DNA of 30,444 bases from a virus (IMGVR_UViG_3300027800_000300:1-30444); one strand, 5' to 3'; positions 9,974 through 30,444 are shown, numbered from the stretch's first letter. The notes: generated by a model from the sequence alone, not told the origin. Translations and numbers: made by a program.

Positions 9974-10369
9974 ATGCATTGGGCCGCCGCTTATATCGGC
10001 CTGCCGTGGTCACCCCATGGCCGGGGGCCGGACCTGTTCAATTGCTGGGAATTCGTCCAGGCGGTTCAGGCCCGCCATTTCGGCCGGGTCCTGCCCGACA
10101 TCGCCAATCCCGAGGACATGCTGGCCATGGGCCGCACCTTTCGCGACCACCCGGAGCGTCGGCGCTGGACCAAGGTCGAGATTCCCGCCGAGGGCGATTG
10201 CGTCCTGCTGCGCCGGTCTCGCCATCCCATCCATGTCGGAATCTGGCTTGAGGTGGATGGTGGCGGTGTTCTGCACTGCGCCGAGGATTCCGGTGTGGTG
10301 TTCCAGCGTCCCGACGCCCTTGGCCTAAATGGCTGGGCGATCGAGGGCTTCTACCGGTTCTCGCCATGA
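9974..10369 (+). CDS. NlpC/P60-family tail peptidase (K-like)
   Basis: A 131-residue protein; the ATG at 9974 has GAAGAGG six bases upstream. It fits a minimal NlpC/P60 cysteine peptidase: a putative nucleophile Cys24 in GPDLFNCWEF, His87 in the HPIHVGIWL strand, and a further polar residue His101 in HCAED. In lambda the K protein with this domain is part of the tail tip and is thought to cut peptidoglycan peptides during DNA entry. Position between a DUF1833 protein and the J-like protein matches the usual order. It lacks the N-terminal JAB domain found in lambda K, so only the peptidase part is present. Its stop overlaps the next ATG. Confidence 0.85.
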   Translation: MHWAAAYIGLPWSPHGRGPDLFNCWEFVQAVQARHFGRVLPDIANPEDMLAMGRTFRDHPERRRWTKVEIPAEGDCVLLRRSRHPIHVGIWLEVDGGGVLHCAEDSGVVFQRPDALGLNGWAIEGFYRFSP

Positions 10370-14921: not shown

Positions 14922-15820
14922 GGCCGGGCCTCCGCAGGCAAACGGTCGGCCAGGGTCTTGGGCATGTCGTTGATCCCCTCCGCCCGCAACAGGGTGCGGA
15001 AATGGTCGTCGGCCAGGAGCTTGCGCAAAGCGCTCAATACGAACACCAGACGCTGTTCGGCCATCTCGGCTTTCTTCACCATCAGGGTTTGCCGCCGTAC
15101 TTCGGCCTGATAGGTCCGCAGCAGGTTCTTGGCGGACAGTTCCTTGGGTGTTTTCTTATCGTTCTTATTGAAGCCCTTACCCAAGGCCCGGCGGCGATCC
15201 ACCAGCTGGCGCACCCGGATAAACTGATCCCCACGCAGGGTGCCGTCCTCGTAGGCCTGCATCAGGGTCGTCTGGACATCCTGCCCTCCCGCCTTGGCGA
15301 TCTCCGTCGCGATGTAGATCGGCAGCCATCCCTGTTCGACGGCATTGATCAGTCGCCCTTCGCCCGCTTTCAGCAAGGTCAGGATGCCGTGGACATAGGC
15401 CCGGTCGACGCCGATCTTTTCGGCGATCCGCGAGGTGTTGTAGCCCCGCTCATCGAGGATACGGACGGCCTGAAGCAGGTCGCTGCTGGAATGCTGGCGG
15501 CGCGCCAGATTTTCCACCAGGCTCATCAGGAAGAGCTCCGCCTCGGGGACCGAGATGATGGCAGCCGGGATTTCCGTTTCGCCCAAAACCTGGAAGGCCT
15601 CGATCCGTCCCTGGCCGCAGACCAGATGATAGATCGGCCCGCAATCGTCATTTCCCGCATGGGTGACGGTGATCGGGCGCTTCAATCCGACGCGCGCGAT
15701 GTTTTCGACAATGCTGGCGAAGACCTTCTTCGAGCGGCTGCGTGGGTTGAGGATACGGATGCGGTCGATGGGAATAGAGCGGATTTCCTCCGGTCCAGCG
15801 ACATGATGGTTTGGTGGCAT
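14918..15820 (-). CDS. ParB/RepB-like partition protein, canonical copy
   Basis: A 300-residue protein whose ATG shares one base with the recombinase stop (TGATG), with GGGAGG upstream; it is therefore translationally coupled. The ParB N-terminal domain (about 12-110) shows CGQGRIEA (68-75) and ENLARR (103-108), matching the GERR-like and ENxxR motifs of CTP-binding ParB proteins. A helix-turn-helix follows (YNTSRIAEKIGVDRAYVHGIL, about 128-150), then a RepB C-terminal helical domain. With the neighbouring divergent copy it could form a heteromeric DNA-binding complex. Linkage to a recombinase rather than ParA suggests a job in recombination or element maintenance; this is inference. Confidence 0.8.
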   Translation of the reverse strand: MPPNHHVAGPEEIRSIPIDRIRILNPRSRSKKVFASIVENIARVGLKRPITVTHAGNDDCGPIYHLVCGQGRIEAFQVLGETEIPAAIISVPEAELFLMSLVENLARRQHSSSDLLQAVRILDERGYNTSRIAEKIGVDRAYVHGILTLLKAGEGRLINAVEQGWLPIYIATEIAKAGGQDVQTTLMQAYEDGTLRGDQFIRVRQLVDRRRALGKGFNKNDKKTPKELSAKNLLRTYQAEVRRQTLMVKKAEMAEQRLVFVLSALRKLLADDHFRTLLRAEGINDMPKTLADRLPAEARP

Positions 15821-17391
15821 CAGGCGACCTCCCTCAGGCTGACGCGCCGGGCCAATCCGTAAAGCGCGTCCAGGGTATCGTGGCGATAGGCGTCAAGACC
15901 GGCGGCGTTGCGTTCGGCCAGACGCATCCGGGATACGGTCATGTCCAGGGCTGGCAGCAGGTAGTAATCCTGCACGGCCTCGTTACCGGCGACCATGCGC
16001 ACCGCGACAGTGATGTCCGGGCACAGGACGGTATCGAAGCGGACTACCCAGCGCCGGGCTCCCGCAGAAGTCTCCTGGCACCGGCTCAGCACCAGGGAGA
16101 TGGTGAATTCGCCGTTGACCGTCAGCAGGTCCGTTGTGGGATCGGTGAACACCTCTCCGCCAATCTCGCGGATACGCTCGACGGTTTCGGCCACTAGGCG
16201 GGGATGCATCGCACGCAGGCCACGGTTGATCTCCAGCATTCGGCAGGCTTGCTCAGGCCGGTAGCCGATCAGGACATAAGCCCTGGTCAGGCTGCCGAAC
16301 CGGCTGCGAAAGGCCCCGCTGGACGGCATGCTTTCGCATTCATCGATGATCAGGCCCGATAGGCACCCCCGCTCATGGAGCAAGCCATTCAGGGCGGACA
16401 GCATTTCCTCGTCGGTCAATCGGACGGAACGATGGCGGATGATGGCCTGGGCGGCATCGAACAGAGCTTGGTCAACGATCGGCGTGAACGCCTTGTCGGC
16501 CCGGATCCAATCATCGGGGGCGTTGATGATCCGCTGTTGCTTCAGCTTGAAGGAACGGCGGTTCCAGACGTTGTTTCCGACGTATTTTTCATTGATCAGC
16601 ACCTGATGGACGGTCCCCCGCGTCCAAGGCCGGCCGAAATCGGTGCGGATGCCTCTGCCGTTGAGCAGGTTGGCGATTTCGCGCTCGTGTCGCCCGTCCT
16701 CGACGAAGGCGCGGAACATCCAGTTGACGGTCTCGATTTCCTCGGGCGGTCCCGGCACCAGAATGACCCGGTCGGTCTGGATGCTTTTCTGCTCGCCGCG
16801 GGCAAGCTCCTCCTTGGGCAGGCCGGTGTGGTCGATCAATTGACGGCGCAGCCCGAACCCGGCGGAGCCTCCCTGACGGTATCCCAGCCCGATCAACCGC
16901 CGCTGGCCGGTGAACACCTTGACCGACAATTCACGGCAGTGCTCACCGGCCATCGAACGTTTCAGCGATTTCAGGACGTGGGAGAGGGGAGTGCGGTCAT
17001 TGCCGAACGGCTCGGCACAGTAATGGACCGCTATTCCGGCCCAGTAGCACCGAAGCTCATGAAAACCGGCTTCATCGGGGTTTTGGAATCGTCCCCACCG
17101 GCTGACATCATAGACCAGTATGGCCGAGAAATCGGCGCGACCGCTTTCCACGTCATCCAGGAGTTGCTGGAATGCATTGCGGCCATTGATGCTCAGCCCG
17201 CTTATGCCTTCGTCGGCATAAGTGCGGACGATCTCGAAGCCATGCGCGTCAGCATACTGGCGGATGGCGTCACGCTGATTTTCTGTCGAATTCTCCTGAT
17301 GCTCGGTGGACATCCGGACATATTGGGCCGCGCGCATCCGCACCTGCGGGGTCGCGCTTATTTCGCCGTTATGTCCGGTTTCGTTGTCCAC
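15820..17391 (-). CDS. Large serine recombinase (ParB-associated type)
   Basis: A 523-residue protein; the GTG at 17391 gives the longest form and an ATG at 17337 (just before AAQYVRMS) is an alternative. The N-terminal resolvase domain (about 20-165) carries catalytic Ser28 in YVRMSTEHQ and an Arg-rich YDVSRWGR motif (94-101). A recombinase domain follows (about 180-290, including RPWTRGTVHQVLINEKYVG). The region where such enzymes usually have a zinc ribbon has only scattered Cys and looks degenerate; the C-terminus is extended instead. Large serine recombinases integrate or excise DNA circles using short att sites. It heads an operon with two ParB-like genes. Confidence 0.88.
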   Translation of the reverse strand: MDNETGHNGEISATPQVRMRAAQYVRMSTEHQENSTENQRDAIRQYADAHGFEIVRTYADEGISGLSINGRNAFQQLLDDVESGRADFSAILVYDVSRWGRFQNPDEAGFHELRCYWAGIAVHYCAEPFGNDRTPLSHVLKSLKRSMAGEHCRELSVKVFTGQRRLIGLGYRQGGSAGFGLRRQLIDHTGLPKEELARGEQKSIQTDRVILVPGPPEEIETVNWMFRAFVEDGRHEREIANLLNGRGIRTDFGRPWTRGTVHQVLINEKYVGNNVWNRRSFKLKQQRIINAPDDWIRADKAFTPIVDQALFDAAQAIIRHRSVRLTDEEMLSALNGLLHERGCLSGLIIDECESMPSSGAFRSRFGSLTRAYVLIGYRPEQACRMLEINRGLRAMHPRLVAETVERIREIGGEVFTDPTTDLLTVNGEFTISLVLSRCQETSAGARRWVVRFDTVLCPDITVAVRMVAGNEAVQDYYLLPALDMTVSRMRLAERNAAGLDAYRHDTLDALYGLARRVSLREVA

Positions 17392-17884: not shown

Positions 17885-18090
17885 ACCAGCCGAAGCCATC
17901 AAGCCGAATCCGCAAAGCCATCGGAGCGGGGATGCATGGCCAGCGTCCTTGGTGCGGCTGATTTTCGCCCGCTCTCTATTCGTTTCCTTTGTCTTTGATC
18001 CAGTGCGAAGGCGGAATGATCTGACTTCCAAGTGACTGTTTTTAATGGCTAACCTTCCGACCAGTCGTTCTCTCAAACTGTCGGTACGCC

Positions 18091-18294
18091 ATGTCCATCG
18101 CCCTGTCCCCCAACCGCATGAACGCCGCCGAGCGGCTCGACGAAATCGCCGAAATTCTGGCAACTGGTGCCATCCGGCTCATGGCCCGGAAGTCCACTCG
18201 TTTATCTGCTGACGGCGGAGACAGTTCCGTCGACTTCATCGCCCACCAGAGCGTGTATGGCGAGGCAACCAACCGCAGGGTTTCCCGCCGATGA
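18091..18294 (+). CDS. Small conserved hypothetical protein of the DUF2924-recombinase cassette
   Basis: A 67-residue protein, possibly starting at the second ATG (18118, MNAAERLDEIAE). No clear ribosome binding site is seen before either. The sequence RLDEIAEILATGAIRLMARKS is a likely helix, followed by a polar SSVDFIAHQS stretch; I have an impression of similar small proteins in front of DUF2924-recombinase pairs. Its stop overlaps the next ATG, so it is coupled to the cassette. Function unknown; perhaps a regulator or recombination directionality factor, which is speculation. Confidence 0.6.
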   Translation: MSIALSPNRMNAAERLDEIAEILATGAIRLMARKSTRLSADGGDSSVDFIAHQSVYGEATNRRVSRR

Positions 18295-18740
18295 CCAACA
18301 CCATCCTCACCCAGGTGGCCGAACTGCCCACCTTGCCGACGCCCAGGCTGAAGGCCATGTGGCGCGAACTGACCGGAACCGAGCCGCCGCCCTACAATCG
18401 CACCTTCCTGGTCAAGCGCCTGGCCTACCGCATCCAGGAACTGGCCTTCGGCGGGCTGTCGGTGAAGGCCGAGCGCCGCCTTGACGATCTGATCGAGGAA
18501 CTGGACGGTAAGAAGAAGCCGAAGCCCAAGGATATGGCCGCCCCGGTCGCGGGCACCAAGCTGATCCGCGAATGGCAGGGCGTCCTGCACGAGGTGACTG
18601 CGCTGGCCAAAGGGTTTGAATGGCAGGGGCGCCGCTACCAGAGTCTGTCGGCGGTCGCCCGCGCCATCACCGGCACCCGCTGGAACGGGCCGCTGTTCTT
18701 CGGCCTGCGCAAGCACGGTGCCTTGGGAGGGAGCCGATGA
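18291..18740 (+). CDS. DUF2924 domain protein
   Basis: A 149-residue basic protein overlapping its neighbours by 4 bases on both sides. It has the DUF2924 pattern: LPTPRLKAMWRELTGTEPP near the N-terminus, NRTFLVKRLAYRIQELAFGGL, then REWQGVLHEVTAL and a C-terminal RRYQSLSAVARAITGTRWNGPLFFGL. That last part resembles RAMA/HARE-like small DNA-binding motifs that end with W-x-G-x-x-F-F-G. DUF2924 genes regularly stand just upstream of large serine recombinases in alphaproteobacterial prophages. The biochemical role is not known to me; a DNA-binding partner of the recombinase is likely. Confidence 0.85.
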   Translation: MTNTILTQVAELPTLPTPRLKAMWRELTGTEPPPYNRTFLVKRLAYRIQELAFGGLSVKAERRLDDLIEELDGKKKPKPKDMAAPVAGTKLIREWQGVLHEVTALAKGFEWQGRRYQSLSAVARAITGTRWNGPLFFGLRKHGALGGSR

Positions 18741-20080
18741 GCACCGCTGTGAAGCCCCTGCGCAAGGTCCGTTGCGCCATCTATACCCGAAAGTCCTCGG
18801 AGGAGGGCTTGGACATGGAATTCAACAGCCTCGATGCCCAGCGGGAGTCCTGCGCCGCCTACATCGCCAGCCAGAAGGCCGAGGGCTGGGTGCCGGTGCC
18901 CGACCATTACGATGACGGCGGATTCTCCGGTGGCAACCTGGAACGCCCGGCGCTGAAACGCCTGCTGGCCGACATCGAGGCCGGTTTGGTCGACGTGGTG
19001 GTGGTCTACAAGATCGACCGCCTCAGCCGCTCGCTGATGGATTTCTCCAAGCTGGTCGAGGTGTTCGACCGCAACGACGTCACCTTCGTCTCGGTCACCC
19101 AGTCGTTCAACACCACCACCTCCATGGGGCGGTTGACGTTGAACATCCTGCTCTCCTTCGCCCAGTTCGAACGCGAGGTGATCGGCGAGCGCATCCGCGA
19201 CAAATTCGCCGCCTCGCGCAAGAAGGGCATGTGGATGGGCGGGGTGCCGCCGCTGGGCTACGATGTGGTCGCCCGCAAACTGGTGGTGAATGCCGCCGAG
19301 GCCGATCTGGTGCGCCACATCTTCCGCCGCTTCCTTCAGGTCGGTTCCGCCACCCTGCTGGTCAAAGAACTGAATGCCGCTGGCCATTGCACCAAGTCCT
19401 GGATCACCCAGGACGGCAAGGAGCGCCAGGGCGTGCCGTTCACCAAGAACTTCCTCTACAAGATGCTGGAGAATCGGGTCTATCTGGGTGAGGCCGTCCA
19501 TAAGGGCGTGGCCCACCCCGGTGAGCACGAAGCCATCATCGACCGCACCACCTGGGAACGGGTCGAGGCGGTGAAGGCCGACAATGCCCCTCGGAAGCGG
19601 GCCGCCGCCGCCCGCGCCACGACCCCGGCGCCGCTCAAGGGGCTGGTGATCTGTGCCCATTGCGGTCGGACCATGACACCGACCCATACGCGCAAGAAGG
19701 GGCGGCTGTACCGCTATTATACCTGCATGAAGGCGATCAACGCTGGCCACGAGTCCTGCCCGGTGCGCAGCATCGCTGCGGGTGAGATTGAGTCGGCGGT
19801 GATCGGACAGGTCCGCGCCCTGCTGCGCGCCCCTGAAATCCGGGCGCGGGCGGAGCGCATGGCGCCCCAGATCGCAGCCACCGACCTGCACGCAGCCCTC
19901 GACCGCTTCGAGGTGGTTTGGGACGAACTGTTCCCCGCCGAACAGGCCCGTCTCCTCCAGTTGCTGGTGGAGCGGGTGAGCATTTCCCCCGACGGGGCGG
20001 ACTTGCGCCTGCGGGCCGAGGGGCTGGCCAGCATCGTCGCCGACATCGCTGCCCAGGTGGGTGAGCGGAGCGCCGCATGA
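18737..20080 (+). CDS. Large serine recombinase (DUF2924-associated type)
   Basis: A 447-residue protein beginning at the ATG that overlaps the DUF2924 stop. The resolvase domain (about 10-155) has catalytic Ser20 in YTRKSSEE and the YKIDRLSRS motif (91-99). The recombinase domain (about 165-270) includes GVPPLGYD and FLYKMLENRVYLGEAVH. A zinc ribbon follows with C306, C309, C330 and C341 (ICAHCGRTM and YYTCMKA...SCPV), intact here. Such enzymes perform directional integration between attP and attB. It is probably the integrase of the prophage or of the region carrying the defence genes. It is not closely related to the recombinase at 15820-17391. Confidence 0.92.
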   Translation: MSTAVKPLRKVRCAIYTRKSSEEGLDMEFNSLDAQRESCAAYIASQKAEGWVPVPDHYDDGGFSGGNLERPALKRLLADIEAGLVDVVVVYKIDRLSRSLMDFSKLVEVFDRNDVTFVSVTQSFNTTTSMGRLTLNILLSFAQFEREVIGERIRDKFAASRKKGMWMGGVPPLGYDVVARKLVVNAAEADLVRHIFRRFLQVGSATLLVKELNAAGHCTKSWITQDGKERQGVPFTKNFLYKMLENRVYLGEAVHKGVAHPGEHEAIIDRTTWERVEAVKADNAPRKRAAAARATTPAPLKGLVICAHCGRTMTPTHTRKKGRLYRYYTCMKAINAGHESCPVRSIAAGEIESAVIGQVRALLRAPEIRARAERMAPQIAATDLHAALDRFEVVWDELFPAEQARLLQLLVERVSISPDGADLRLRAEGLASIVADIAAQVGERSAA

Positions 20081-20496
20081 GCGGCGTAAGTCTTGACACC
20101 TTCACCGTCCGGGTGCCGCTGAAATTGCGGCGGCACGGTGGGCGCAAACTGGTGATCGCGCCCGAGGGTGCGGGTATCCCGGAACATCCGCGCGCAACTC
20201 CCGACGATACCCTGCTGAAGGCGCTGGCTCGGGCGTACCGCTGGAAACGAACACTGGAATCAGGGCAGGTGCGTTCGCTGAACGAATTAGCCGAGGCGGA
20301 GAGGATCAACCCGTCCTATCTCAGCCGCATCTACCGCCTGACCCTGCTGGCTCCCGACATCGTCGAGGCCATCCTCAATGGGCGCCAGCCGCGCACCCTG
20401 CAACTGGCCGATTTGATGGACGACATGCCGGTGGAGTGGGATCGGCAGCGGGAGAGGTTCGGAATTGTGGAAGAGCTCCATCCTCCTGTCTCATAA
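20077..20496 (+). CDS. Recombinase-linked HTH-like protein
   Basis: A 139-residue protein whose ATG overlaps the recombinase stop. The middle (about 64-110) has a helix-turn-helix of ParB/KorB flavour: SLNELAEAERINPSYLSRIYRL followed by LLAPDIVEAILNGRQPRTLQLADLM. The N-terminal 60 residues are basic and beta-like (TFTVRVPLKLRRHGGRKLVI). Such proteins follow large serine recombinases in several alphaproteobacterial elements. It probably binds DNA and could act as a directionality factor or a regulator of integration. That role is inferred only from gene order. Confidence 0.7.
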   Translation: MSGVSLDTFTVRVPLKLRRHGGRKLVIAPEGAGIPEHPRATPDDTLLKALARAYRWKRTLESGQVRSLNELAEAERINPSYLSRIYRLTLLAPDIVEAILNGRQPRTLQLADLMDDMPVEWDRQRERFGIVEELHPPVS

Positions 20497-20593
20497 ATTT
20501 TCGCAAATGGGCGCCTTCAATGCACAGGGCCGTTTTCAGCTATCCGTCTGCAAATCTGATGGCTAAAGTAGCTCCAACTGAGGGGGCGATTTC

Positions 20594-20797
20594 ATGCATC
20601 GTATGTCTGCGCGCGACGCCAAGAACAGCTTCGGAAGGCTGATTGATCTGGCCCGCGCCGAACCGGTTGCGATCGAAAAATATGGCCGATCCGTCGTCGT
20701 CGTTCTCTCGGTAGAGGAATATGAGCGCCTCACCGGCAAGGCCGAAAAGCCGCGCGCGGCGGCAGAATCCGCCAAGCGCCGGGGAGCGGATAAGTGA
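20594..20797 (+). CDS. Phd/YefM-type antitoxin without adjacent toxin
   Basis: A 67-residue protein with GAGGGGG 7 bases before its ATG. The Phd/YefM fold is clear: MSARDAKNSFGRLIDLARAEPVAIEKYGRSVVVVLSVEEYERL, with the typical ARxxF-x-LI and G-R-VVVV-S-EEYE elements. The usual acidic toxin-binding C-terminus is replaced by a short basic tail (KPRAAAESAKRRGADK). No Doc, YoeB or PIN toxin gene follows; hsdM does, 48 bases later. It may act as a transcriptional regulator of the restriction operon through its DNA-binding N-terminus. A trans-acting partner toxin elsewhere cannot be excluded. Confidence 0.82.
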   Translation: MHRMSARDAKNSFGRLIDLARAEPVAIEKYGRSVVVVLSVEEYERLTGKAEKPRAAAESAKRRGADK

Positions 20798-20813
20798 CGG
20801 GCCACATCAACAA

Positions 20814-20828
20814 GCCGGGCAGCCCGGC
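20814..20828. promoter_or_regulatory. 15-base palindrome upstream of hsdM
   Basis: GCCGGGC-A-GCCCGGC is a perfect 7-base inverted repeat around a single A. It lies between the Phd-type gene and hsdM and touches the hsdM ribosome binding site (GGGAG, 20830-20834). It could be a protein-binding operator or, as RNA, a small hairpin damping hsdM translation. Confidence 0.4.
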
Positions 20829-20845
20829 AGGGAGACGAGCGTAAC

Positions 20846-22849
20846 ATGGCGAGCCATTCCGACCTTGCCAATCTGATTTGGCAGATCGCCGACCTGCTGC
20901 GCGGCCCCTACCGGCCGCCGCAATATGAGCGCGTAATGCTGCCGCTTGTCGTGTTGCGCCGCTTTGATTGCGTCCTCGCCGACACCAAGTCGAAAGTGTT
21001 GGCGGAATTTGAGCGTCGTAAGGGCGGAAAGCTGGAAGACGATGCGCTTGACCGCATCCTCAACAAGGCATCAGGCCACCGCTTTCACAACCGGTCACCG
21101 ATGACTTTCGAGACGATGATCGGCGACACCCCAAATCTTGCGGGGCACCTACAGGCTTATATCAGCGGCTTTTCCGCGAACGTTCGGCGAATTTTCGAGT
21201 ATTTCGAATTCACTAACGAAATCGAGAAGATGAATGAAGCAAACATTCTCTACTTGGTTTTGAAGGGCTTCCAGAAGATCAATCTTCATCCAGACGATGT
21301 GAAGAACGATCAGATGGGGCTGCTGTTCGAAAATCTGATCCGGCGCTTCAATGAACTGGCTAATGAGACGGCGGGCGATCACTTCACGCCCCGCGAGGTC
21401 GTCCATCTTATGGTTGATTTATTGTTTATTGACGCGGACGACCTTCTGACTAAAGAAGGCTACGCCGTCAGGATGCTCGACCCCGCCTGCGGCACTGGCG
21501 GCATGCTGGCCGGGGCCCAGTCCTACATGCGCCAGCATAACCTGGCGGCGAAGCTCTACGTCTACGGACAGGACTACAACAAGCGTGCCTTCGCCACGGC
21601 GGCGTCCGACATGCTCATGAAGCAAGTTGATCACAATGGCGGCGGCGAGAACATCCAGTTCGGCGACACCTTCACCGAGGACCGTTTCGAGGGGCAGCAG
21701 TTCGATTACTTCATCGCCAACCCGCCCTTTGGCGTCGATTGGAAGAAGCAGCAGAAAGATATCACGCGCAGGCACGAAAAGGCCGGACGCGACGATCCAT
21801 TCGGCGCTGGGCTTCCCAGGGTCAATGATGGTTCGCTGCTATTCCTTCAGCACATGATCTCCAAGTTCGAGGCCGTCGATCCAAAGGCTCAGAAATACGG
21901 CTCGCGAGCGGCAATCGTATTCTCAGGGTCGCCCCTCTTCACCGGCGGTGCGGGCGGCGGTGAGAGCGAAATCCGTCGATGGATCATCGAACGCGACATG
22001 CTCGAAGCCATCGTCGCCCTCCCGGAGCAGATGTTCTACAACACCGGCATCGGCACCTATATCTGGATCGTCACCAACCGGAAGATGAAGGAGCGCACAG
22101 GTAAAATTCAATTGGTCGATGCGCGTGAGACGTGGATTCCCATGCGCCGTAGCCAGGGGGATAAGCGCCGCAAGATTGGCGAGGGCAAGGCTCAGGAGGG
22201 CGACAACCGCGAGGATGAGCCCGATCAGATTGCCGAAATCGTGCGCCTCTACGGCCGGTTCGAGGTGAACGAAAAGTCAAAGCTCTTCGACAATGAAGAT
22301 TTCGGCTACACCCGCGTCACAGTCGAGCGGCCCTTGCGACTGCGCTACCAGATGACGGTGGAGGACAAGGCGCGCTTCCTTGATGCCGCGCCGCATCTGC
22401 TTGACGACGTCCAGGCAATCGACAAGGCGCTTGGACGCGAGCCGGATCTCGATTGGAACGCGATCTGGGCCAACATCGTGAAGCTGTTGAGGAAGCGCGG
22501 ATCGCGCTGGAAGGCGCCGGAAGAAAAGCTTTTCCGTTCGGTCTTCACGGTGAAGGACCCCGGTGCCGCCCAGGTAAAAAAAGGATCTGGCTTCGAGGTC
22601 GATCCCGATTTGCGCGATTTCGAGAACGTACCACTGAAGCAAGATATCGATGCTTATTTCAAACGGGAGGTTCTGCCACATGTCCCCGATGCCTGGATGG
22701 ACCGGACGAAGGATAAGGTCGGCTATGAGATCAACTTCAACCGCCACTTCTACAGATTTAGTCCGCCGCGCAAGCTGGCCGAGATCGATGCAGACCTGAA
22801 GACGGCGGAAGAAGAAATCCTCCGGCTGCTGCGAGAGGTGACGGAATGA
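20846..22849 (+). CDS. hsdM: Type I restriction-modification N6-adenine methyltransferase subunit
   Basis: A 667-residue HsdM. The N-terminal helical HsdM_N domain (about 1-145) precedes the methyltransferase core. SAM-binding motif I is DPACGTGGM (212-220) and catalytic motif IV is NPPF (292-295), the form used for N6-methyladenine. HsdM pairs with HsdS (M2S1) to methylate the recognition sequence and forms R2M2S1 with HsdR. The C-terminal part (about 420-667) is longer than in classical E. coli HsdM (about 520 residues), as in several large HsdM families. The stop overlaps the hsdS start (ATGA, 22846-22849). All motifs look intact. Confidence 0.95.
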   Translation: MASHSDLANLIWQIADLLRGPYRPPQYERVMLPLVVLRRFDCVLADTKSKVLAEFERRKGGKLEDDALDRILNKASGHRFHNRSPMTFETMIGDTPNLAGHLQAYISGFSANVRRIFEYFEFTNEIEKMNEANILYLVLKGFQKINLHPDDVKNDQMGLLFENLIRRFNELANETAGDHFTPREVVHLMVDLLFIDADDLLTKEGYAVRMLDPACGTGGMLAGAQSYMRQHNLAAKLYVYGQDYNKRAFATAASDMLMKQVDHNGGGENIQFGDTFTEDRFEGQQFDYFIANPPFGVDWKKQQKDITRRHEKAGRDDPFGAGLPRVNDGSLLFLQHMISKFEAVDPKAQKYGSRAAIVFSGSPLFTGGAGGGESEIRRWIIERDMLEAIVALPEQMFYNTGIGTYIWIVTNRKMKERTGKIQLVDARETWIPMRRSQGDKRRKIGEGKAQEGDNREDEPDQIAEIVRLYGRFEVNEKSKLFDNEDFGYTRVTVERPLRLRYQMTVEDKARFLDAAPHLLDDVQAIDKALGREPDLDWNAIWANIVKLLRKRGSRWKAPEEKLFRSVFTVKDPGAAQVKKGSGFEVDPDLRDFENVPLKQDIDAYFKREVLPHVPDAWMDRTKDKVGYEINFNRHFYRFSPPRKLAEIDADLKTAEEEILRLLREVTE

Positions 22850-24048
22850 TACGTGACCTCGGCTTAGTAGGGCTGCCCCGCGATTGGATTTGGAAAAAAT
22901 TGAAATACGTCGCCCGGATGGCTGCTGGTGACGCCATCACGTCCGAGGATATTAGAGAAACTGGCGACTATCCTGTTTACGGTGGAAACGGACTTCGCGG
23001 ATACACCGAGAACTTCAATCGTAAGGGCGATTTCGTTTTGATCGGCCGCCAAGGTGCCCTTTGCGGCAATATCAACTACGCCTCCGGCGAATTCTGGGCG
23101 TCAGAACATGCTATCGTGGCAGACCTGCAAGACAACGCCGAAGTGCGGTGGCTCGGCGAGCTCCTGTCCTTCATGAACCTGAACCAGTACTCGCAATCTG
23201 CTGCACAGCCCGGCATCGCCGTTGATGTAATCGCCAATCTCCCAATTCCCGTGCCTCCACGGAAAACTCAAAAGGCGATCGCCTCTTTCCTCAGTCGCGA
23301 AACCACCGACATCGACGCCCTGATCGCGGCCAAGCAGCGGTTGCTGGAGCTTCTGGCCGAGAAGCGGCGTGTGATTGTCGCCGAGGCGATCATGCGCGGG
23401 CTGAACTCCGCCACCCCGCTCCGCCCCTCCGGCATCGACTGGCTCGGCGATATCCCCGCGCATTGGGAGGTGGAGAGGTCGCGCTGGCTGTTCCAGGAGC
23501 GTGACGAGCGGTCGGAAACGGGCAAAGAGGAAATGCTGACGGTGTCACATTTGACCGGGGTTACGCCTCGCTCCGAGAAGGACGTCAACATGTTCGAAGC
23601 GGAGACGACGGCGGGCTATAAACTCTGCTTCGCTGGCGATTTGGCCATTAACACGCTTTGGGCCTGGATGGGCGCCATGGGCACCGCTCGCGTCGACGGC
23701 ATCGTGAGCCCTGCCTACAATGTCTACACCCCGGGCCCGCGCCTTATTCCCGATTATGTTGACGCTCTTGTTCGCATTCCGGTCTTTGCGCAGGAAGTGA
23801 CGCGCTATTCCAAGGGAGTCTGGTCTTCGCGCCTCCGGCTTTACCCGGAAGGCTTCTTCGAGACCTATTGGCCGATTCCGCCGATTGCCGAACAATGGGA
23901 AATCGTCCATCACATCGCGACCGAAACCGCCAAAATCGACCGCCTACGCACCGCCACCGAGAACTCCATCACGCTGCTGAAGGAACGTCGCGGCGCACTG
24001 ATCGCCGCCGCCGTCACCGGCCAGATCGAAGTCCCGGAGGCGGCATGA
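22846..24048 (+). CDS. hsdS: Type I restriction-modification specificity subunit
   Basis: A 400-residue HsdS with the standard two-half layout. The first target-recognition domain (about 1-145) includes YPVYGGNGLRGY and GRQGALCGNI. The central conserved coiled coil (about 145-190) follows the I-x-x-FL-x-x-ET-x-x-IDALI pattern and ends in VIVAEAIMRGL. The second target-recognition domain (about 195-345) starts GIDWLGDIPAHWEV. A C-terminal coiled coil starts at about 350 and ends LIAAAVTGQIEV. Each domain reads one half of a bipartite DNA site. The recognition sequence cannot be derived from the sequence alone. The stop overlaps the ATPase start. Confidence 0.93.
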   Translation: MIRDLGLVGLPRDWIWKKLKYVARMAAGDAITSEDIRETGDYPVYGGNGLRGYTENFNRKGDFVLIGRQGALCGNINYASGEFWASEHAIVADLQDNAEVRWLGELLSFMNLNQYSQSAAQPGIAVDVIANLPIPVPPRKTQKAIASFLSRETTDIDALIAAKQRLLELLAEKRRVIVAEAIMRGLNSATPLRPSGIDWLGDIPAHWEVERSRWLFQERDERSETGKEEMLTVSHLTGVTPRSEKDVNMFEAETTAGYKLCFAGDLAINTLWAWMGAMGTARVDGIVSPAYNVYTPGPRLIPDYVDALVRIPVFAQEVTRYSKGVWSSRLRLYPEGFFETYWPIPPIAEQWEIVHHIATETAKIDRLRTATENSITLLKERRGALIAAAVTGQIEVPEAA

Positions 24049-25364
24049 AACTCACTAGCCTTTCCCTCGAAAACGTCAGGGCCTTCAAAGAAGCGGAGTT
24101 TAAATTCGATCCCGGCTTCAATCTGATTATCGGCATCAACGGAGCAGGTAAGAGTACTGCGCTGGACACGATACGCTTCTGCGCTTCGCATCTGCTGGCC
24201 GCACTGCAAAAGATGCCCTTCAAGCCATTTGGCCTCAGTACGGATGATATCCACGGCAAAGCTCCGTTTGCAGAAGCTTCCCTGCACATCAACTTTGCAG
24301 ACAAGGGAGACGCATTCGTTCGGCTGCGCGAATGGCGGGAGCAGGTAGCCGTCGAGGATACCTCTAACCTTGAGCGCCTGCGCCGGGAAATTCTCGAAAC
24401 CGCCCGGCCGAGGGAACGGCTTCGCACCCAATTGCGAGAGCTCGTTGAAACAGTTTCGCCGAACGATTCCGTGTTCTTCTACCCGTCCAAAAATGAACTG
24501 AAGGAGCGATCGGGCAGGCAGTCGAGCGCGCCATTGGTCATCCACTATTCCACTGCGCGCTCGATCATGAATGAGCAGGCGGAACGTAAATCCGCGGCGG
24601 GCACCAGTCAGCTTGCCTATGTTAATGCGCTTCAATCAAACGCACTCAGCCTGCGCCAATTCGCCGACTGGATGCGCGCCCAGATCGGGTTGTCGTCGGA
24701 GCGCCCGGCGTCTCGGCATCTTGTAGATGGAATTGCCACCGCCCTTGACCGGTTCCTACCTGGCTATTCAAATCTGAGACCTTCAAGCGAGAATCCGTCG
24801 AAGGTCGAGATCGACATCAAGGGCACGACGCTTGATGTGCGGGCGTTGTCAGACGGTGAGCGAAGCGTACTCGCATTGATCCTCGACATCTCCAAACGGC
24901 TCGCTCAGGCAAATCCTCGTCTGGATGATCCTCTTGCCAGCAGCGAGGCCGTTATTCTCATCGATGAGATCGATTTGCATCTCCATCCGCAATGGCAGCG
25001 CCAGATCGTCAAAAATCTCGAACGCACGTTTCCGAATTGCCAGTTCATCGCAACCACGCACTCTCCGCAGACTATTGGGGAAGTGCCTCACGACAAAATC
25101 CAGATGATCAAGGATGGGCGCATCTATCCCCCAAGCCGCTCATACGGGATCGATTCCAGCCGGGTGCTTGAAGAGGTAATGGACACGGCGTCACGCAACC
25201 CGGCGATAGAACAGGAAATCGGCCGTATCGCCAAACTGATCGGGAATCATAAAAGTGCAGAAGCAAGAGCTGCGATCGAGGCGTTGTCCGATCAGATCGG
25301 CGCCGACGATCCGGAAATAACCCGCGCCCGCACGCTCCTCGACTTCATGGAGGGGGAGGCGTGA
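24045..25364 (+). CDS. SMC/ABC-like ATPase of Septu type (PtuA-like)
   Basis: A 439-residue ATPase starting at the ATG overlapping the hsdS stop. It has an N-terminal LSLENVRAFKEAEF strand, Walker A GINGAGKST (30-38), an ABC-type signature LSDGERS (268-274), Walker B VILIDEID (303-310) and a switch His in TTHSPQ (337-342). The middle is short and partly helical, without a long coiled coil. This is the COG3950/AAA_21 type that pairs with TIGR02646 HNH proteins in Septu systems (PtuA-PtuB). In those, PtuA forms an oligomeric platform for the PtuB nuclease. Here the HNH partner follows with a 4-base overlap. Place between hsdS and hsdR is unusual and suggests functional linkage to restriction. 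Confidence 0.82.
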   Translation: MKLTSLSLENVRAFKEAEFKFDPGFNLIIGINGAGKSTALDTIRFCASHLLAALQKMPFKPFGLSTDDIHGKAPFAEASLHINFADKGDAFVRLREWREQVAVEDTSNLERLRREILETARPRERLRTQLRELVETVSPNDSVFFYPSKNELKERSGRQSSAPLVIHYSTARSIMNEQAERKSAAGTSQLAYVNALQSNALSLRQFADWMRAQIGLSSERPASRHLVDGIATALDRFLPGYSNLRPSSENPSKVEIDIKGTTLDVRALSDGERSVLALILDISKRLAQANPRLDDPLASSEAVILIDEIDLHLHPQWQRQIVKNLERTFPNCQFIATTHSPQTIGEVPHDKIQMIKDGRIYPPSRSYGIDSSRVLEEVMDTASRNPAIEQEIGRIAKLIGNHKSAEARAAIEALSDQIGADDPEITRARTLLDFMEGEA

Positions 25365-25993
25365 GGGCCATCACCAAGGCGGCCGAGCCGCAAAGCTTGG
25401 TGCAGCACCGGGCTCAGGCGCACAGCGACTACAACAACTACGTGCAGAAGGATGAATTGCGAACGGCACTTGTCGGCGAGCAAAAAGGACTATGCTGTTA
25501 TTGCACAGGGCGCATTCGAGCCGATGCCGAGGCAATGAAAATTGAGCATTGGCAATGTCAGGCGAGCTATCCACAGCACCAACTCGCCTACGGCAATCTG
25601 CTCGGCGCTTGTCTCGGGGGGCAAGGCCAGGCGGAGGCTGATCAGCACTGTGATACGAGAAAGGGTAACCGCGAACTCCTGTGGAATCCGGCCACTGCGG
25701 CCCACATGATCGAATCTCGGCTGCGCTATCTTTCTGACGGAACTGTTGAAAGTACAGATGCAGCGTTCAATGATCAGCTAAATTCTGTTTTGGGTCTAAA
25801 TTTGAAGTATTTGAAGAATAACAGAAAGGCCGTTCTAGATGCCATGCTAGTCTGGTGGCGTATGGCGCAACCAGTTTCGAAGCAGAAGCTCCAAATGCAG
25901 ATAGATAGACGCACGAACCATGTCGGCGAGTATCAGCCATTCAGCCCAGTTGCGGTCTGGTTTCTACGGCAAAAATTGGGAGCGGCAGCATGA
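25361..25993 (+). CDS. HNH endonuclease of Septu type (PtuB-like, TIGR02646)
   Basis: A 210-residue protein starting at a GTG inside the end of the ATPase gene (GTGA overlap). Motifs fit the TIGR02646 HNH family: C45-C46-Y-C48, IEHW with His63, Asn79 in GNLLGAC, then Cys84 and His96-Cys97 in HCDTRKGN (96-103). This gives the H-N-H catalytic set plus two Cys pairs for zinc. PtuB proteins are nucleases activated by the ATPase partner, harming phage or host nucleic acid. The gene has some of the lowest GC in the window in its second half (about 25730-25920). It ends overlapping the hsdR start. Confidence 0.82.
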   Translation: MRAITKAAEPQSLVQHRAQAHSDYNNYVQKDELRTALVGEQKGLCCYCTGRIRADAEAMKIEHWQCQASYPQHQLAYGNLLGACLGGQGQAEADQHCDTRKGNRELLWNPATAAHMIESRLRYLSDGTVESTDAAFNDQLNSVLGLNLKYLKNNRKAVLDAMLVWWRMAQPVSKQKLQMQIDRRTNHVGEYQPFSPVAVWFLRQKLGAAA

Positions 25994-28900
25994 GCCACGC
26001 CAGGCATTCGGAAGGCGCATTCGAGACCGTGATCGAGGCCACCATGCTGGCCAATGGCTATGTGCCGGAGCCTGTCGCCGGTTTCGACCGCGAGCGAGCG
26101 ATCTTTCCCGCGACGGTGCTGGATTTCATCCGCGTCACCCAGCCCAAGGAATGGAAGGCGCTTGAAGCGCTGCATGGCGAGAAGACCGGTACCCAGATTC
26201 TAACCGATCTCACCAAATGGATGGACCAGAACGGTTCGCTGGCGACGCTGCGCCACGGCTTCAAATGCTATGGCAAAACCTTGCGCGTCGCCTTCTTCAA
26301 AGCCGCCCACGCGCTGAACCCCGAGCTTGAGGCGCGCTATGCCGCCAACCGCGTCGGTATTACTCGGCAACTGCACTTTTCCAAGACTTCGGAGAAGTCG
26401 CTGGACGTGACGCTGAGCGTCAATGGCATTCCCGTGGCGTCGGTGGAACTCAAGAACCCGCTGACCGGGCAAAATGTTGATCATGCCCTGCACCAGTACC
26501 GGAAGGATCGCGATCCGCGCGAGCCGATCTTCGAGTTCAAGCGGCGCATGCTGGTCCATTTCGCAGCCGACACCGAGGCCGTGTTCATGACCACCCGGCT
26601 TGCCGGAAACGCGACGCACTTTCTGCCCTTCAACCGAGGCAACGACGGCGGCGCGGGCAACCCACCCGATCCCAAAGGGCGCAGCTATCGCACGGCCTAT
26701 CTCTGGGAAGAGGTGTTGCAGCGCGATAGCCTGCTGGATCTGTTGGCCCGGTTCATTCATCTGCAAATTGAGGAAAAGCGTGACGATCAGGGCCGTAAGG
26801 TCAAGAAGGAAACCTTGATCTTCCCGCGCTTCCACCAGCTTGAGGCCGTCCGCTCCCTGGTCGATCAAGCCCAGCGCGAAGGAGTTGGCAACAACTATCT
26901 GATTGAGCACTCGGCCGGCAGCGGCAAGAGCAACACCATCGGCTGGCTCACCCATCGGCTGGCTTCGCTGCATGACGCCAGGAATGAGCGCGTCTTCGAC
27001 AGTGTCATCGTGATCACTGATCGGGTGGTTCTCGACAAGCAGCTTCAGGACACGATCTATCAGTTCGAGCACAAACACGGGGTCGTGCAGAAAATCGACG
27101 AAAGCTCGCGGCAACTCGCCGAAGCGTTGGAAAACGCCGTGCCGGTCATCATCACCACTTTGCAGAAGTTCCCATTTGTGTCGCGCCAGCTCGCCAAAAT
27201 GGCGGAGGAGCGGGGCGAGGTTAATGGCGGTACGTTGAAATCCCGCAAATGCGCCGTAATCATTGACGAGGCTCATAGTTCACAGGGCGGCGAAACCGCG
27301 ACTGATCTTAAAGAAGTCCTCGGCGGCCAGGGTCTGCGCGAGGAGGCCACGAAGTATATGGCCGAAAATGATGAGGATGATGTTGAAGAGCTGTATCGGT
27401 CTATGGCCAAACGTGGTCGGCAGGCAAACCTTAGCTTCTTCGCGTTCACCGCCACTCCCAAGCACAAGACACTTGCCGTCTTCGGTCGCGAGGGAAAGGC
27501 TGCGCACCGATACACGATGCGCCAAGCCATCGAGGAAGGGTTTATTCTCGATGTTCTGAAGCACTACACGACCTATGCAACCTATTTCCGGCTGCTGAAA
27601 GCAAGCGAGGACGACCCGAACGTTGAACGAAAGAAAGCGGCGCGTGCGCTTGCGCGCTTCCTAAAGCTGCATCCCCACAACATTGCGCAGAAAACCGAAG
27701 TGATGATCGAGCACTTCAATGCGGCGACCCAGCACAAGATTGGCGGGCGTGCCAAGGCAATGGTCATCACCGGGTCGCGCCTGGAGGCCGTGCGCTACAA
27801 GCAAAGCTTCGATACTTATATTAAGGAGAGAGGTTACGCGATTAAGTCGCTAGTAGCCTTCTCCGGCACCGTGACCGACGACAAGCTCGACGACGTAACC
27901 TACACCGAAGAGGGCATGAATCTCGGCGTGCGCGAGAAAGAACTGCCTGAAGCCTTTGCGACGCAGGAATATCAGGTGCTGCTCGTCGCGGAAAAGTATC
28001 AGACCGGCTTCGATCAACCGTTGCTGCACACGATGTATGTCGATCGACGCCTTGCGGGCATCCAAGCTGTGCAAACGCTCTCGCGCCTCAATCGCATCCA
28101 TCCTTTGAAGGAGGATACGTTCGTTCTCGACTTCGTCAATGATCGTGACGAAATTCGCGAGGCATTTAAGACCTATTTTGAAGGCGCCGAGATTGGCGAA
28201 GAAGTCGATCCGGCAAGGATGTATCAAATTAAGACGGAGCTCGATGCCGAAGGCGTGTATGAAATTGAGGATGTTCAGCGATTTTCTTCAGTCTATTTTA
28301 AGCCGAAGCAGCGCCAGAGTGCGAACGATCATCAGATGATGAATGCCGCCCTCGATCCAGCCGTTTCACGTTTTGAAGAAATGCAGAGTGCCAATCCAGA
28401 CGAGGCAGAATTGTGGCGCGGCAAGGTTCTCGCGTTCGGCAGCCTATATGGCTTTCTGAGCCAGATAATCCCGTATCAAGATTCTGATCTGGAGCGTCTC
28501 TACGTATTCCTGCGCCATTTGGCTGCGAAGCTGCCGAGGCGGGCTAGTGGTCCATCCTATCAGTTCGATGATGAAGTGCGACTTGAATATTATCGTCTCC
28601 AGAAAATAAGCGAAGGTTCAATCAGCCTGAATGAAGGACAGGCCAACCGCCTCGATGGCCCTTCCGAAGTTGGAACTGGCGTTCTTCACGAAGAGGCGGT
28701 GCCTCTCTCGCGCCTGATTGATGTCGTCAACGAACGGTTCGGAACAGACTTCAATCAAGCCGACCAACTGTTCTTCGATCAGATCGTTGAAGCGGCCATC
28801 TCTGACAATGCACTGAAGCAAGCTGCTGCGGTCAATCCCGGCGACAAGTTCGAGTTGGTGTTCCGGAATCTCCTCGAGGCGCTGTTCGTTGAACGAATGG

Positions 28901-29073
28901 ATCAGAACGAGGAAATTTTCGCCCGTTTCATGAACGACAAATCGTTCCAGAAGGTCGTCACCGGCTGGCTGTCCTCCGAGGCGTATCGGAAGCTCAAATT
29001 GGTGGACCAGGTTCATACTGCCAGGGAAACGGATAATGCAGGAAATGGCCGGGATATCGGCCAAAGTCCATAA
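25990..29073 (+). CDS. hsdR: Type I restriction enzyme, restriction/translocation subunit
   Basis: A 1027-residue HsdR. The N-terminal nuclease domain has the PD-(D/E)xK pattern with Asp139 and E153-L-K155. The helicase/translocase has Walker A in EHSAGSGKSN (306-315), DEAH box at 426-429 (IIDEAHSSQGG), then FFAFTATPK and, later, VAEKYQTGFDQP and QTLSRLNR (motif VI-like). The C-terminal helical part binds the M2S1 core. HsdR translocates unmodified DNA and cuts at a distance. The ATG overlaps the HNH gene. The last 20-25 residues (after AYRKLK) are polar and look unlike the family end, perhaps read-through into other DNA. Otherwise intact. Confidence 0.95.
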   Translation: MSHARHSEGAFETVIEATMLANGYVPEPVAGFDRERAIFPATVLDFIRVTQPKEWKALEALHGEKTGTQILTDLTKWMDQNGSLATLRHGFKCYGKTLRVAFFKAAHALNPELEARYAANRVGITRQLHFSKTSEKSLDVTLSVNGIPVASVELKNPLTGQNVDHALHQYRKDRDPREPIFEFKRRMLVHFAADTEAVFMTTRLAGNATHFLPFNRGNDGGAGNPPDPKGRSYRTAYLWEEVLQRDSLLDLLARFIHLQIEEKRDDQGRKVKKETLIFPRFHQLEAVRSLVDQAQREGVGNNYLIEHSAGSGKSNTIGWLTHRLASLHDARNERVFDSVIVITDRVVLDKQLQDTIYQFEHKHGVVQKIDESSRQLAEALENAVPVIITTLQKFPFVSRQLAKMAEERGEVNGGTLKSRKCAVIIDEAHSSQGGETATDLKEVLGGQGLREEATKYMAENDEDDVEELYRSMAKRGRQANLSFFAFTATPKHKTLAVFGREGKAAHRYTMRQAIEEGFILDVLKHYTTYATYFRLLKASEDDPNVERKKAARALARFLKLHPHNIAQKTEVMIEHFNAATQHKIGGRAKAMVITGSRLEAVRYKQSFDTYIKERGYAIKSLVAFSGTVTDDKLDDVTYTEEGMNLGVREKELPEAFATQEYQVLLVAEKYQTGFDQPLLHTMYVDRRLAGIQAVQTLSRLNRIHPLKEDTFVLDFVNDRDEIREAFKTYFEGAEIGEEVDPARMYQIKTELDAEGVYEIEDVQRFSSVYFKPKQRQSANDHQMMNAALDPAVSRFEEMQSANPDEAELWRGKVLAFGSLYGFLSQIIPYQDSDLERLYVFLRHLAAKLPRRASGPSYQFDDEVRLEYYRLQKISEGSISLNEGQANRLDGPSEVGTGVLHEEAVPLSRLIDVVNERFGTDFNQADQLFFDQIVEAAISDNALKQAAAVNPGDKFELVFRNLLEALFVERMDQNEEIFARFMNDKSFQKVVTGWLSSEAYRKLKLVDQVHTARETDNAGNGRDIGQSP

Positions 29074-29168
29074 TAGCGACAGCGGGTGACCGCCGGTCAT
29101 TCGACACGGAGTACGCCATCACCGCTTTGCGGTTCATCGATCTTTGCCATCTCAACGAGACATCGTGG

Positions 29169-30444
29169 TTACCCGATATCGTCTCGCTGCCCAATCCAGG
29201 AATTCGGAACCAGCTTGATGCCATCGCGCCATCGCTGCGATATCGACTCGCGGAACCAACCGTCCAGCAATTCGACGTGATCCAAGACGATGATCTGCAT
29301 GGGCGAGGCTGTTCTGGTGCAATGGTCAAAAAGCAGTCTGTAAAGGCGGGCGACGGCGAGTTGATCCTCGTCTCGGCCATCGACCTCGCCGATATCCTTT
29401 TCTGGCGGATAGTAGGCCTGGGACGGCTGATCCAGCATCAAAAAGGCGGGAACCGGTCGGTTGCGGGCGCGGAAGAGCTTGTGAAGAGCCAGATGGGCGG
29501 CGACATGATAGCCGACCCAATTCTCTCCGCTGCCGATGTTTGGCAGCATGAGCGGGCCATTTACGGTGTCCGCGACAACGGTCAATCTGCGCCGATCAAG
29601 GCGCAGTGGATTGTTGCCATGTTCGAGCGCCAGCGCGCCCGCAATCTCGGTGAGATCGCGTCCGACGAACCCCAGTGCGGTGGTGAGTCGCTCCTCCAGC
29701 AAATCCAAATCCAGGGCCTGCTCAAGGGCTTGCACCTCGGCACGGAGCTGGGCAATTTCAAGTTTCAGCCCGTCATCAGATGAAACGATGCGGGCGTTTT
29801 CGAGGTAGTACCCGATACGGCCGGCGACGCGCGCCTGTTCGGTGAACTGATCCTGCTGGATGCGCAGACGCTCGTTGTCGGCAATACGCGAGGCCATGTC
29901 TTGCTGAACTGTCTTCAGGCGGTCTTCGATATCGAAGCGCTTTGTCTCGAGCTCAGCCACACGCTCCTGTAGCCGCGGATTGTCGCGTCGGACCGAACTC
30001 AGTTGTCGCTCTAGACCGATCAGCGAGCGCGTGATTTCGGTCACCGATGGCACCGGGTTGGGTAGGTGGCTTTCGCAGAGAGGGCACCGATCCGCAGCCC
30101 CGCCATCGCTGGAGACAAGGCCGATGGCGCTCAGGCGGGCCTGCTGCTCTCGTGCCTCGGATTCGAATTCTGAAACCTCGTGTTCCAGCCTACGAAGGTC
30201 CGCGATTTCCTCCCGCACGTCCTGAAGCTCGGACCGCAGACGGCGACGGCGTTCTTCCAGGTCGTTGAGGTCGGCGGCGGGATCGTCCAATGTCGCATAG
30301 GTCAGCGGGCGCGGGGTGGCCGCGCTCGCCAGCGCAGCACGCAGTCGCTCAGGTGAGTCCATGATGGTGTCGGCCGGCACCAATCCCACCCGCTTGGCTT
30401 CCTTGATTAGGGTTTCAGCCGTTACCGTTGCCTTGCTGGAAAGG
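29169..30444 (-). CDS. DUF3732 coiled-coil ATPase (5' end cut by window edge)
   Basis: The frame is open to the window end, so only the last 424 residues are visible; the Walker A part would lie outside. Seen here: long coiled coils on both sides of a CPLCESH motif (CxxC, Rad50-like zinc hook), then an ABC-type signature region GSGENWVGYH and a Walker B-like FLMLDQPSQAYYP. These are hallmarks of DUF3732 proteins. As I recall, DUF3732 ATPases are discussed with the ABC-three-component conflict systems, usually with small middle and effector components beside them. Those would be upstream, beyond the right edge. The gene is convergent with hsdR, with 95 bases between their stops. It suggests a wider defence island. 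Confidence 0.82.
   Translation of the reverse strand, partial: LSSKATVTAETLIKEAKRVGLVPADTIMDSPERLRAALASAATPRPLTYATLDDPAADLNDLEERRRRLRSELQDVREEIADLRRLEHEVSEFESEAREQQARLSAIGLVSSDGGAADRCPLCESHLPNPVPSVTEITRSLIGLERQLSSVRRDNPRLQERVAELETKRFDIEDRLKTVQQDMASRIADNERLRIQQDQFTEQARVAGRIGYYLENARIVSSDDGLKLEIAQLRAEVQALEQALDLDLLEERLTTALGFVGRDLTEIAGALALEHGNNPLRLDRRRLTVVADTVNGPLMLPNIGSGENWVGYHVAAHLALHKLFRARNRPVPAFLMLDQPSQAYYPPEKDIGEVDGRDEDQLAVARLYRLLFDHCTRTASPMQIIVLDHVELLDGWFRESISQRWRDGIKLVPNSWIGQRDDIG

Follow-up and report, generated by a model that had tools for sequence, protein, structure and literature searches.

Why should an ATPase and an HNH endonuclease of the Septu family, PtuA and PtuB, be encoded inside a type I restriction-modification (R-M) operon, between the gene of the specificity subunit (hsdS) and that of the restriction subunit (hsdR)? 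This question is raised by a viral record of IMG/VR (IMGVR_UViG_3300027800_000300), 30,444 bases long; the whole of this stretch is called here the window. We find that the arrangement recurs in dozens of loci, that its PtuA proteins form a single lineage, and that two segments of the pair are exchanged as cassettes within a conserved hsd framework. By analogy with known systems, PtuAB may be a fallback nuclease guarded by the R-M enzyme.

Effectors at this place in type I operons are known. EcoprrI keeps PrrC, the product of a gene inside a type I operon, in check until the phage anti-restriction protein Stp activates it, and in Ronin the M/S subunits are coupled to a toxin, RonA, with no HsdR (PMC12409349, PMC12707154). 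DarTG2 lies between hsdS and hsdR in the RRDM island of E. coli EPEC (PMC12255303), and an embedded Septu has been noted in Hma systems (cited in PMC12255303). The PtuAB pair is also known: that of retron-Eco7 degrades tRNA-Tyr (PMC11555353), Septu EcB88 cuts tRNA-Tyr in the variable loop (PMC13096335), and Septu of E. coli ATCC 25922 has been reported to act on nicked DNA (cited in PMC11555353). Both parts of the window operon have been described, and so have effectors in its hsdS–hsdR slot; the literature searched contained no description of the make-up hsdMS–ptuAB–hsdR, of its single-lineage history or of its two-cassette mosaicism, and a prior mention is possible. Within that literature the earlier note on this DNA, which knew of no described system of this exact composition, remains correct.

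Anatomy of the operon

Five genes on the + strand, at 20846–29073, form the operon hsdM–hsdS–ptuA–ptuB–hsdR, and all five open reading frames (ORFs) are full length:

20846..22849 (+), hsdM, type I methyltransferase subunit, 667 amino acids (Pfam N6_Mtase 1e-52, HsdM_N 1e-22; PADLOC MTase_I 5.5e-255)
22846..24048 (+), hsdS, specificity subunit with two variable target-recognition regions, 400 amino acids (Pfam Methylase_S 1e-21; PADLOC Specificity_I 1.5e-70; pattern of variable and conserved parts)
24045..25364 (+), ptuA-like ATPase, 439 amino acids (PADLOC PtuA 3.2e-118; predicted structure)
25361..25993 (+), ptuB-like HNH endonuclease, GTG start, 210 amino acids (PADLOC PtuB 4.5e-71; TIGR02646; predicted structure; conservation)
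25990..29073 (+), hsdR, type I restriction/translocase subunit, 1027 amino acids (Pfam HSDR_N, SWI2_SNF2, T1R_D3-like; TIGR00348 1.5e-58, below its cut-off)
24045..24048 (+), ATGA overlap of hsdS and ptuA (a 4-bp overlap in 41/43 embedded loci)
25361..25364 (+), GTGA overlap of ptuA and ptuB (ORF junction)
25990..25993 (+), ATGA overlap of ptuB and hsdR (a 4-bp overlap in 27 loci; other loci have extra genes here)

With methylase, specificity and nuclease/translocase domains present in hsdM, hsdS and hsdR, the operon is a type I R-M system. The overlaps at all four gene junctions are of 4 bases, ATGA or GTGA, and the ORF order places the pair at the prrC position between hsdS and hsdR; the earlier note had read both features correctly when it described the pair as welded into the operon.

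The pair is a member of Septu: a PtuA-family ABC ATPase and a PtuB-family HNH protein are adjacent, with Walker A/B and H-N-H residues intact. In addition to the PADLOC matches listed above, the HNH protein scores 60 bits against NCBIfam TIGR02646 (cut-off 52), and the pair scores below the cut-offs of the models specific for retron Ec78 (NF041760, NF041761). The predicted PtuA structure (predicted local distance difference test, pLDDT, 84.8) has template modelling (TM) scores of 0.76-0.81 to PtuA of retron Ec83, retron-Eco7 and E. coli Septu, while that of PtuB (pLDDT 95) matches PtuB of Ec83, Ec78/Eco7 and Septu with E values of 4e-8 to 2e-5. These systems, including entries 8eea and 9e90, are the best structural matches of both predictions, and the PtuA–PtuB-like identity proposed in the earlier note stands.

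Residues G30, G35, K36, S269, G271, E272, D307, E308 and H339 of PtuA, and H63, N79 and K101 of PtuB, are invariant in 39/39 embedded homologues, and the equivalents of K36, D307 and E308 (PtuA) and of H63 and N79 (PtuB) are essential in Septu EcB88 (PMC13096335). Among the motifs listed in the earlier note, Walker A, LSDGERS, Walker B, the switch histidine, H63 and N79 are confirmed. PtuB H96 is not conserved, being Y or F in 7/39 homologues; the third invariant residue is K101. A second PtuB type (L169, L170, L171, L172, L187) lacks the cysteine pairs but keeps H63, N79 and K101, and its PtuAs fall in the embedded clade.

The retrons Ec78/Eco7 and Ec83/Eco4 have a homologous PtuAB effector, and their solved complexes are the best fold matches. 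A retron reading of the window was rejected: no reverse transcriptase ORF was found in the operon or its flanks, and no Rfam RNA in 18000-30444. Furthermore, the solved retron PtuAs have about 60 residues ahead of the ATPase domain that are absent in window PtuA.

Recurrence of the arrangement

GTDB genome contigs were scanned with a PtuB alignment, which gave 75 loci; 35 of them, and L002 from viral contigs, have all five genes in the same order. After annotation with hidden Markov models, and with the loci found via HsdR, PtuAB stands before hsdR in 45 loci, two of which (L013 and L014) have identical HsdR. Scans of viral contigs with PtuA, or with the alignment of PtuB, gave no further loci. 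The carriers include Alpha- and Gammaproteobacteria (beta lineages included), Thermodesulfobacteriota, Acidobacteriota, Verrucomicrobiota, Krumholzibacteriota and viral contigs, and PtuA identity ranges from 30 to 77% across dozens of independent loci with the five-gene order. Because the order recurs so widely, the arrangement is not due to chance, and an accident confined to one genome, which the earlier note had considered, is ruled out by some 45 loci across several phyla.

Among the carriers are viral contigs (the window, L002, L003 and L166). The culturable Ketogulonicigenium vulgare WSH-001 has the exact operon on a conjugative plasmid (L187; plasmid 1, NC_017386, 55966-64147), and Xanthobacter tagetidis is a further bacterial source of the operon. 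A related phage tail-tip (GpJ-like) gene lies near the operon in two viral contigs (window 10366-12663; L002:13826-16147), which indicates that the R-M–PtuAB system travels on prophages.

A single lineage of embedded PtuAB

In the HsdR tree every PtuAB bearer falls within one 54-row clade (support 100). In the PtuA trees a single branch splits 47 embedded PtuAs from 31, and then from 42, stand-alone PtuAs, with support of 97 and 98 in the Shimodaira–Hasegawa-like approximate likelihood ratio test (SH-aLRT); the stand-alone set includes a retron Ec78 PtuA. The embedded or stand-alone state requires 1 change, compared with about 24–30 in shuffles (29.9 with 42 stand-alone PtuAs), and no embedded lineage turned stand-alone among the 89 PtuAs in the tree. 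In a search with PtuA as the query, 3/7 alphaproteobacterial and 1/9 gammaproteobacterial PtuAs were embedded (embedded copies of the centre genomes excluded), and the remainder had no surrounding hsd genes, save an HsdS-like fragment beside one. Distances correlate between HsdR and PtuA (Mantel 0.80) and between HsdR and PtuB (0.48). The simplest reading of these trees is that PtuAB entered an ancestral type I operon once, the whole being then inherited and horizontally transferred. Embedded pairs share with stand-alone Septu the two families, their order, fold and catalytic residues; they differ from it in their place, stand-alone pairs being outside R-M operons, and in forming a separate clade with two-cassette mosaicism.

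Occupants of the slot between hsdS and hsdR were sampled with window HsdR alone as the query, in four genome sets centred on genomes that carry the loci, from Alphaproteobacteria (385), Gammaproteobacteria (369), the Xanthobacter order (398) and Acidobacteriota (247), excluding centre genomes and contig-edge cases from the counts. Among near HsdR relatives (at least 67% identity) the gap was empty in 0/15, held PtuAB in 6/15 and other gene(s) in 9/15; among more distant HsdRs it was empty in 24/46 and occupied in 22/46, with PtuAB in 0/46. Fisher tests of near against distant HsdRs, not corrected for phylogeny, gave p = 1.6e-4 (slot occupancy) and 9e-5. The non-PtuAB occupants of near HsdRs were an ImmA/IrrE-like M78 peptidase with DUF4411, a HEC-01-type AAA protein with DUF4276, an OLD-like ATPase, and a D12 methylase with a Schlafen-like gene; TIR was also among the effector- or toxin-like occupants of the slot. 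Random cargo at a hotspot was rejected as the sole account, since PtuA forms one clade and every HsdR sampled from its clade has a filled slot, although the slot does accept other genes. The RRDM island holds a toxin pair in the identical slot; its effector is another one, and it has been described as a recombination hotspot, in contrast to the one inherited lineage seen here.

These data bear on the view that an ordinary Septu entered the R-M operon once and has kept its own phage sensing, with nothing in common with the R-M genes beyond transcription and transfer. Four observations would suit such independence: stand-alone pairs are frequent and do work (PMC13096335); an additional docking domain is lacking in embedded PtuA; the slot takes many unrelated defence genes; and, as shown below, both cassettes vary independently of HsdS. 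However, it does not readily explain the zero reversions to the stand-alone state, the slot that is empty in none of the 15 near relatives, or a place strictly within the coupled genes rather than beside them, which is hard to obtain from co-transfer alone. We consider it a serious possibility, though on balance a doubtful one.

Several loci show other states of the slot. M78 (ImmA/IrrE-like) peptidases occupy it in L175, L176, L177, L178, L180, L181 and L185, and also in L007, L029 and L030, with a DUF4411 partner where the neighbour was tested, and either alone or in tandem with PtuAB (for L029 and L030 judged from ORF sizes and order). M78 peptidase with DUF4411 is a candidate second common effector pair of the slot. 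Proteins of about 200 amino acids with no Pfam match, candidate effectors, are found in the slot of related HsdR operons (L084:895-1482; L124:881-1492). At L026:10620-11813 a 5' fragment of hsdR is fused to the 3' tail of hsdS, and a zeta-toxin-like ORF, an ORF of 61 codons and another start of hsdR follow. The locus bears the scar of cassettes stacked in the slot. This locus had been a candidate for a broken HsdR with intact PtuAB, a test of restraint, and was rejected on finding an N gap and the duplicated hsdR start around the zeta-toxin-like insert. One branch has HsdR frames of about 1180-1400 amino acids (L007, L019, L020, L022, L038, L166, L167, L168, L175-L181), with a C-terminal extension absent from window HsdR.

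The company of toxin genes raises another explanation, in which the Hsd proteins neutralise PtuAB, a toxin, and the main role of the pair is to stabilise the R-M operon where a prophage or plasmid carries it. The viral and plasmid carriers named above would be expected of such an addiction module, as would toxin-antitoxin genes in the same slot (M78 with DUF4411; DarTG2 in the literature), but most loci are on bacterial genome contigs that are not obviously mobile, and the mosaic diversification of both cassettes resembles an arms race. We regard it as very unlikely; it is nevertheless compatible with PtuAB as a guarded fallback, the two not being mutually exclusive.

Two exchangeable cassettes

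The proteins of the operon differ widely in conservation, with median identities of 71% for HsdR, 60% for HsdM, 48% for PtuB and 37% for PtuA. Comparison of closely related loci resolves the variable part into two cassettes:

24048..25022 (+), first exchangeable cassette, PtuA residues ~2-326, of which ~60-265 are the most variable (L008/L009 DNA comparison; protein profile)
25023..25990 (+), second exchangeable cassette, the C-terminal ~100 residues of PtuA (helical tail) and the whole of ptuB, up to the hsdR start codon (L004/L187, L170/L027; partial Mantel)

In the pair L004/L187, hsdM, the end of hsdS with the first ~320 ptuA codons, and all of hsdR are 86–90% identical in DNA, whereas the ptuA tail and ptuB have no DNA match; PtuB is 27% identical and the whole of PtuA 78%. 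L170/L027 has the same pattern, the tail and ptuB being replaced. L008/L009 is the mirror case: PtuA residues 2–325 are replaced, with no DNA match, between flanks that are 87-92% identical, and identity returns at about residue 326 and continues through ptuB (PtuB 93%) into hsdR. The first cassette changes while HsdM and HsdR remain about 93% identical. PtuA residues 1 to ~325 swap as one cassette, and the C-terminal tail with PtuB as another. Relaxed constraint alone as the cause of PtuA divergence is ruled out by the sharp DNA breakpoints. Stand-alone PtuAs, of which close pairs are few, gave one borderline mid-domain swap only.

Partial Mantel tests controlling for HsdR agree with this division. 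The PtuA tail (345-437) correlates with PtuB (0.80; 0/300 permutations), and the PtuA middle correlates with neither the tail nor PtuB (0.01, 0.00). In the predicted model the tail consists of four helices, and we infer that it docks PtuB. The variable cassettes of PtuA and PtuB gave values of -0.13 to 0.03 against the HsdS target-recognition regions, and a weak correlation of 0.19 was seen between the PtuA core and the first HsdS variable region.

The last comparison concerns a further possibility, that HsdMS, or the products of HsdR translocation and breakage, bring PtuAB to unmodified phage DNA, which the HNH protein then cuts or nicks. The report on the ATCC 25922 Septu fits it; type I enzymes produce such DNA ends and HNH nucleases often cut DNA. 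Yet variants of PtuA and PtuB do not covary with the target-recognition regions, which speaks against HsdS-guided PtuAB variants; the first cassette is swapped next to almost unchanged HsdM and HsdR; and both PtuABs with determined targets cut tRNA (PMC11555353, PMC13096335). A DNase directed in this way is unlikely in our judgement, and the suggestion in the earlier note that PtuAB is guided by HsdRMS is disfavoured.

Neighbouring genes

Downstream of hsdR and convergent with it, the C-terminal part of an LmuB-like DUF3732 protein (29169-30443, -) runs off the window; to judge from its sequence this gene is possibly a Lamassu-type defence. Between the phage tail genes and the defence operon lie two ParB-like genes, one with a RepB/ParB Pfam match, and a serine recombinase (14013-17391, -), followed by DUF2924 and a second serine recombinase (18291-20496, +).

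PtuAB as a possible guarded fallback

We return to the reading introduced at the outset, a PrrC- or Ronin-like fallback nuclease under guard-type coupling to the R-M enzyme, which we hold as our leading proposal at slightly less than an even chance. It draws on the analogy with PrrC and Ronin and on the linkage pattern. HsdM, HsdS and HsdR would form a type I enzyme that modifies host DNA and cleaves DNA lacking the mark, and PtuA and PtuB a latent ATPase–HNH nuclease whose synthesis from the shared transcript is translationally coupled. In the uninfected cell PtuAB would be kept inactive by, or balanced with, the modification/restriction complex, most likely M.S; a phage that blocks or evades the R-M enzyme would free PtuAB or switch it on, and the active nuclease would then halt phage production in the manner of PrrC, by cutting a shared target that is most likely a tRNA. 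The ATPase head and variable lobe of PtuA (residues 1 to ~325) would sense the trigger, the docking tail and PtuB would be the effector, and recombination would exchange both cassettes within the conserved hsd chassis.

PrrC/EcoprrI and the window operon have in common an ABC-type ATPase effector at the same position inside a type I hsd operon. Known PtuABs cleave tRNA-Tyr and PrrC cleaves tRNA-Lys, which brings the two nearer to each other than the earlier note stated. However, PrrC (type IC) acts as one protein that has an anticodon nuclease of its own, whereas the window effector, a PtuA-family ATPase with a separate HNH nuclease, is a two-protein system of the Septu family and not a PrrC; and control of PrrC by its R-M enzyme has been proven, while for window PtuAB a PrrC-like working may be supposed by analogy. 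Ronin likewise couples M/S subunits to a toxin, a short single one without HsdR, in contrast to the full hsdR of the window. L021:6064-11914 resembles it: HsdM fused to half an HsdS (907 amino acids) is followed by PtuA, PtuB and an M78 peptidase without a cognate hsdR, the only HsdR of that genome being broken, 47% identical and located elsewhere. Since M-S and PtuAB are kept here without their hsdR, this locus points to M.S as the partner of PtuAB. The lack of any embedded-to-stand-alone escape in our sample would likewise follow from a dependence of PtuAB on its hsd partners. The reading draws further on the recurring, translationally coupled gene order, on catalytic residues intact in 39/39 homologues, on the filled slot of 15/15 near HsdRs, and on the effector- or toxin-like nature of the other occupants.

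Several points weigh against guarding. The computed evidence shows the anatomy, its recurrence, the single PtuA lineage, the two-cassette mosaicism and intact active sites, and no contact, physical or regulatory, of PtuAB with the Hsd proteins. Embedded PtuAs are hardly longer than stand-alone ones (medians 435 and 422 amino acids) and have no extra domain; their conserved surface is the ATPase core, with none beyond it; and the regions of greatest variability in PtuA and PtuB adjoin near-constant HsdM and HsdR, which would be odd for tight docking. Mechanical confinement, with cassettes recombining only through the hsd flanks, could mimic dependence. The L021 argument comes from one metagenome-assembled genome. 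Stand-alone Septu functions without R-M, and the target of PtuAB may be DNA, as reported for the ATCC 25922 system.

If PtuAB is nevertheless a guarded fallback tRNase, the lineage would carry four exchangeable cassettes set between conserved islands, namely the two HsdS target-recognition regions, the PtuA sensor, and the PtuA tail with PtuB as effector, so that recognition and shut-down are reshuffled independently; this extended proposal is plausible, and we put it forward more tentatively than the guarding itself. Natural swaps in the cassette map, in which a constant sensor is joined to two nucleases or a constant nuclease to two sensors, offer a route to the trigger of PtuA and the target of PtuB. 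If PtuAB does answer to the R-M enzyme, the PrrC trick of punishing a phage for disarming restriction would be a general design with swappable effectors, and it would become testable whether the many genes found in this slot are likewise fallbacks under guard.

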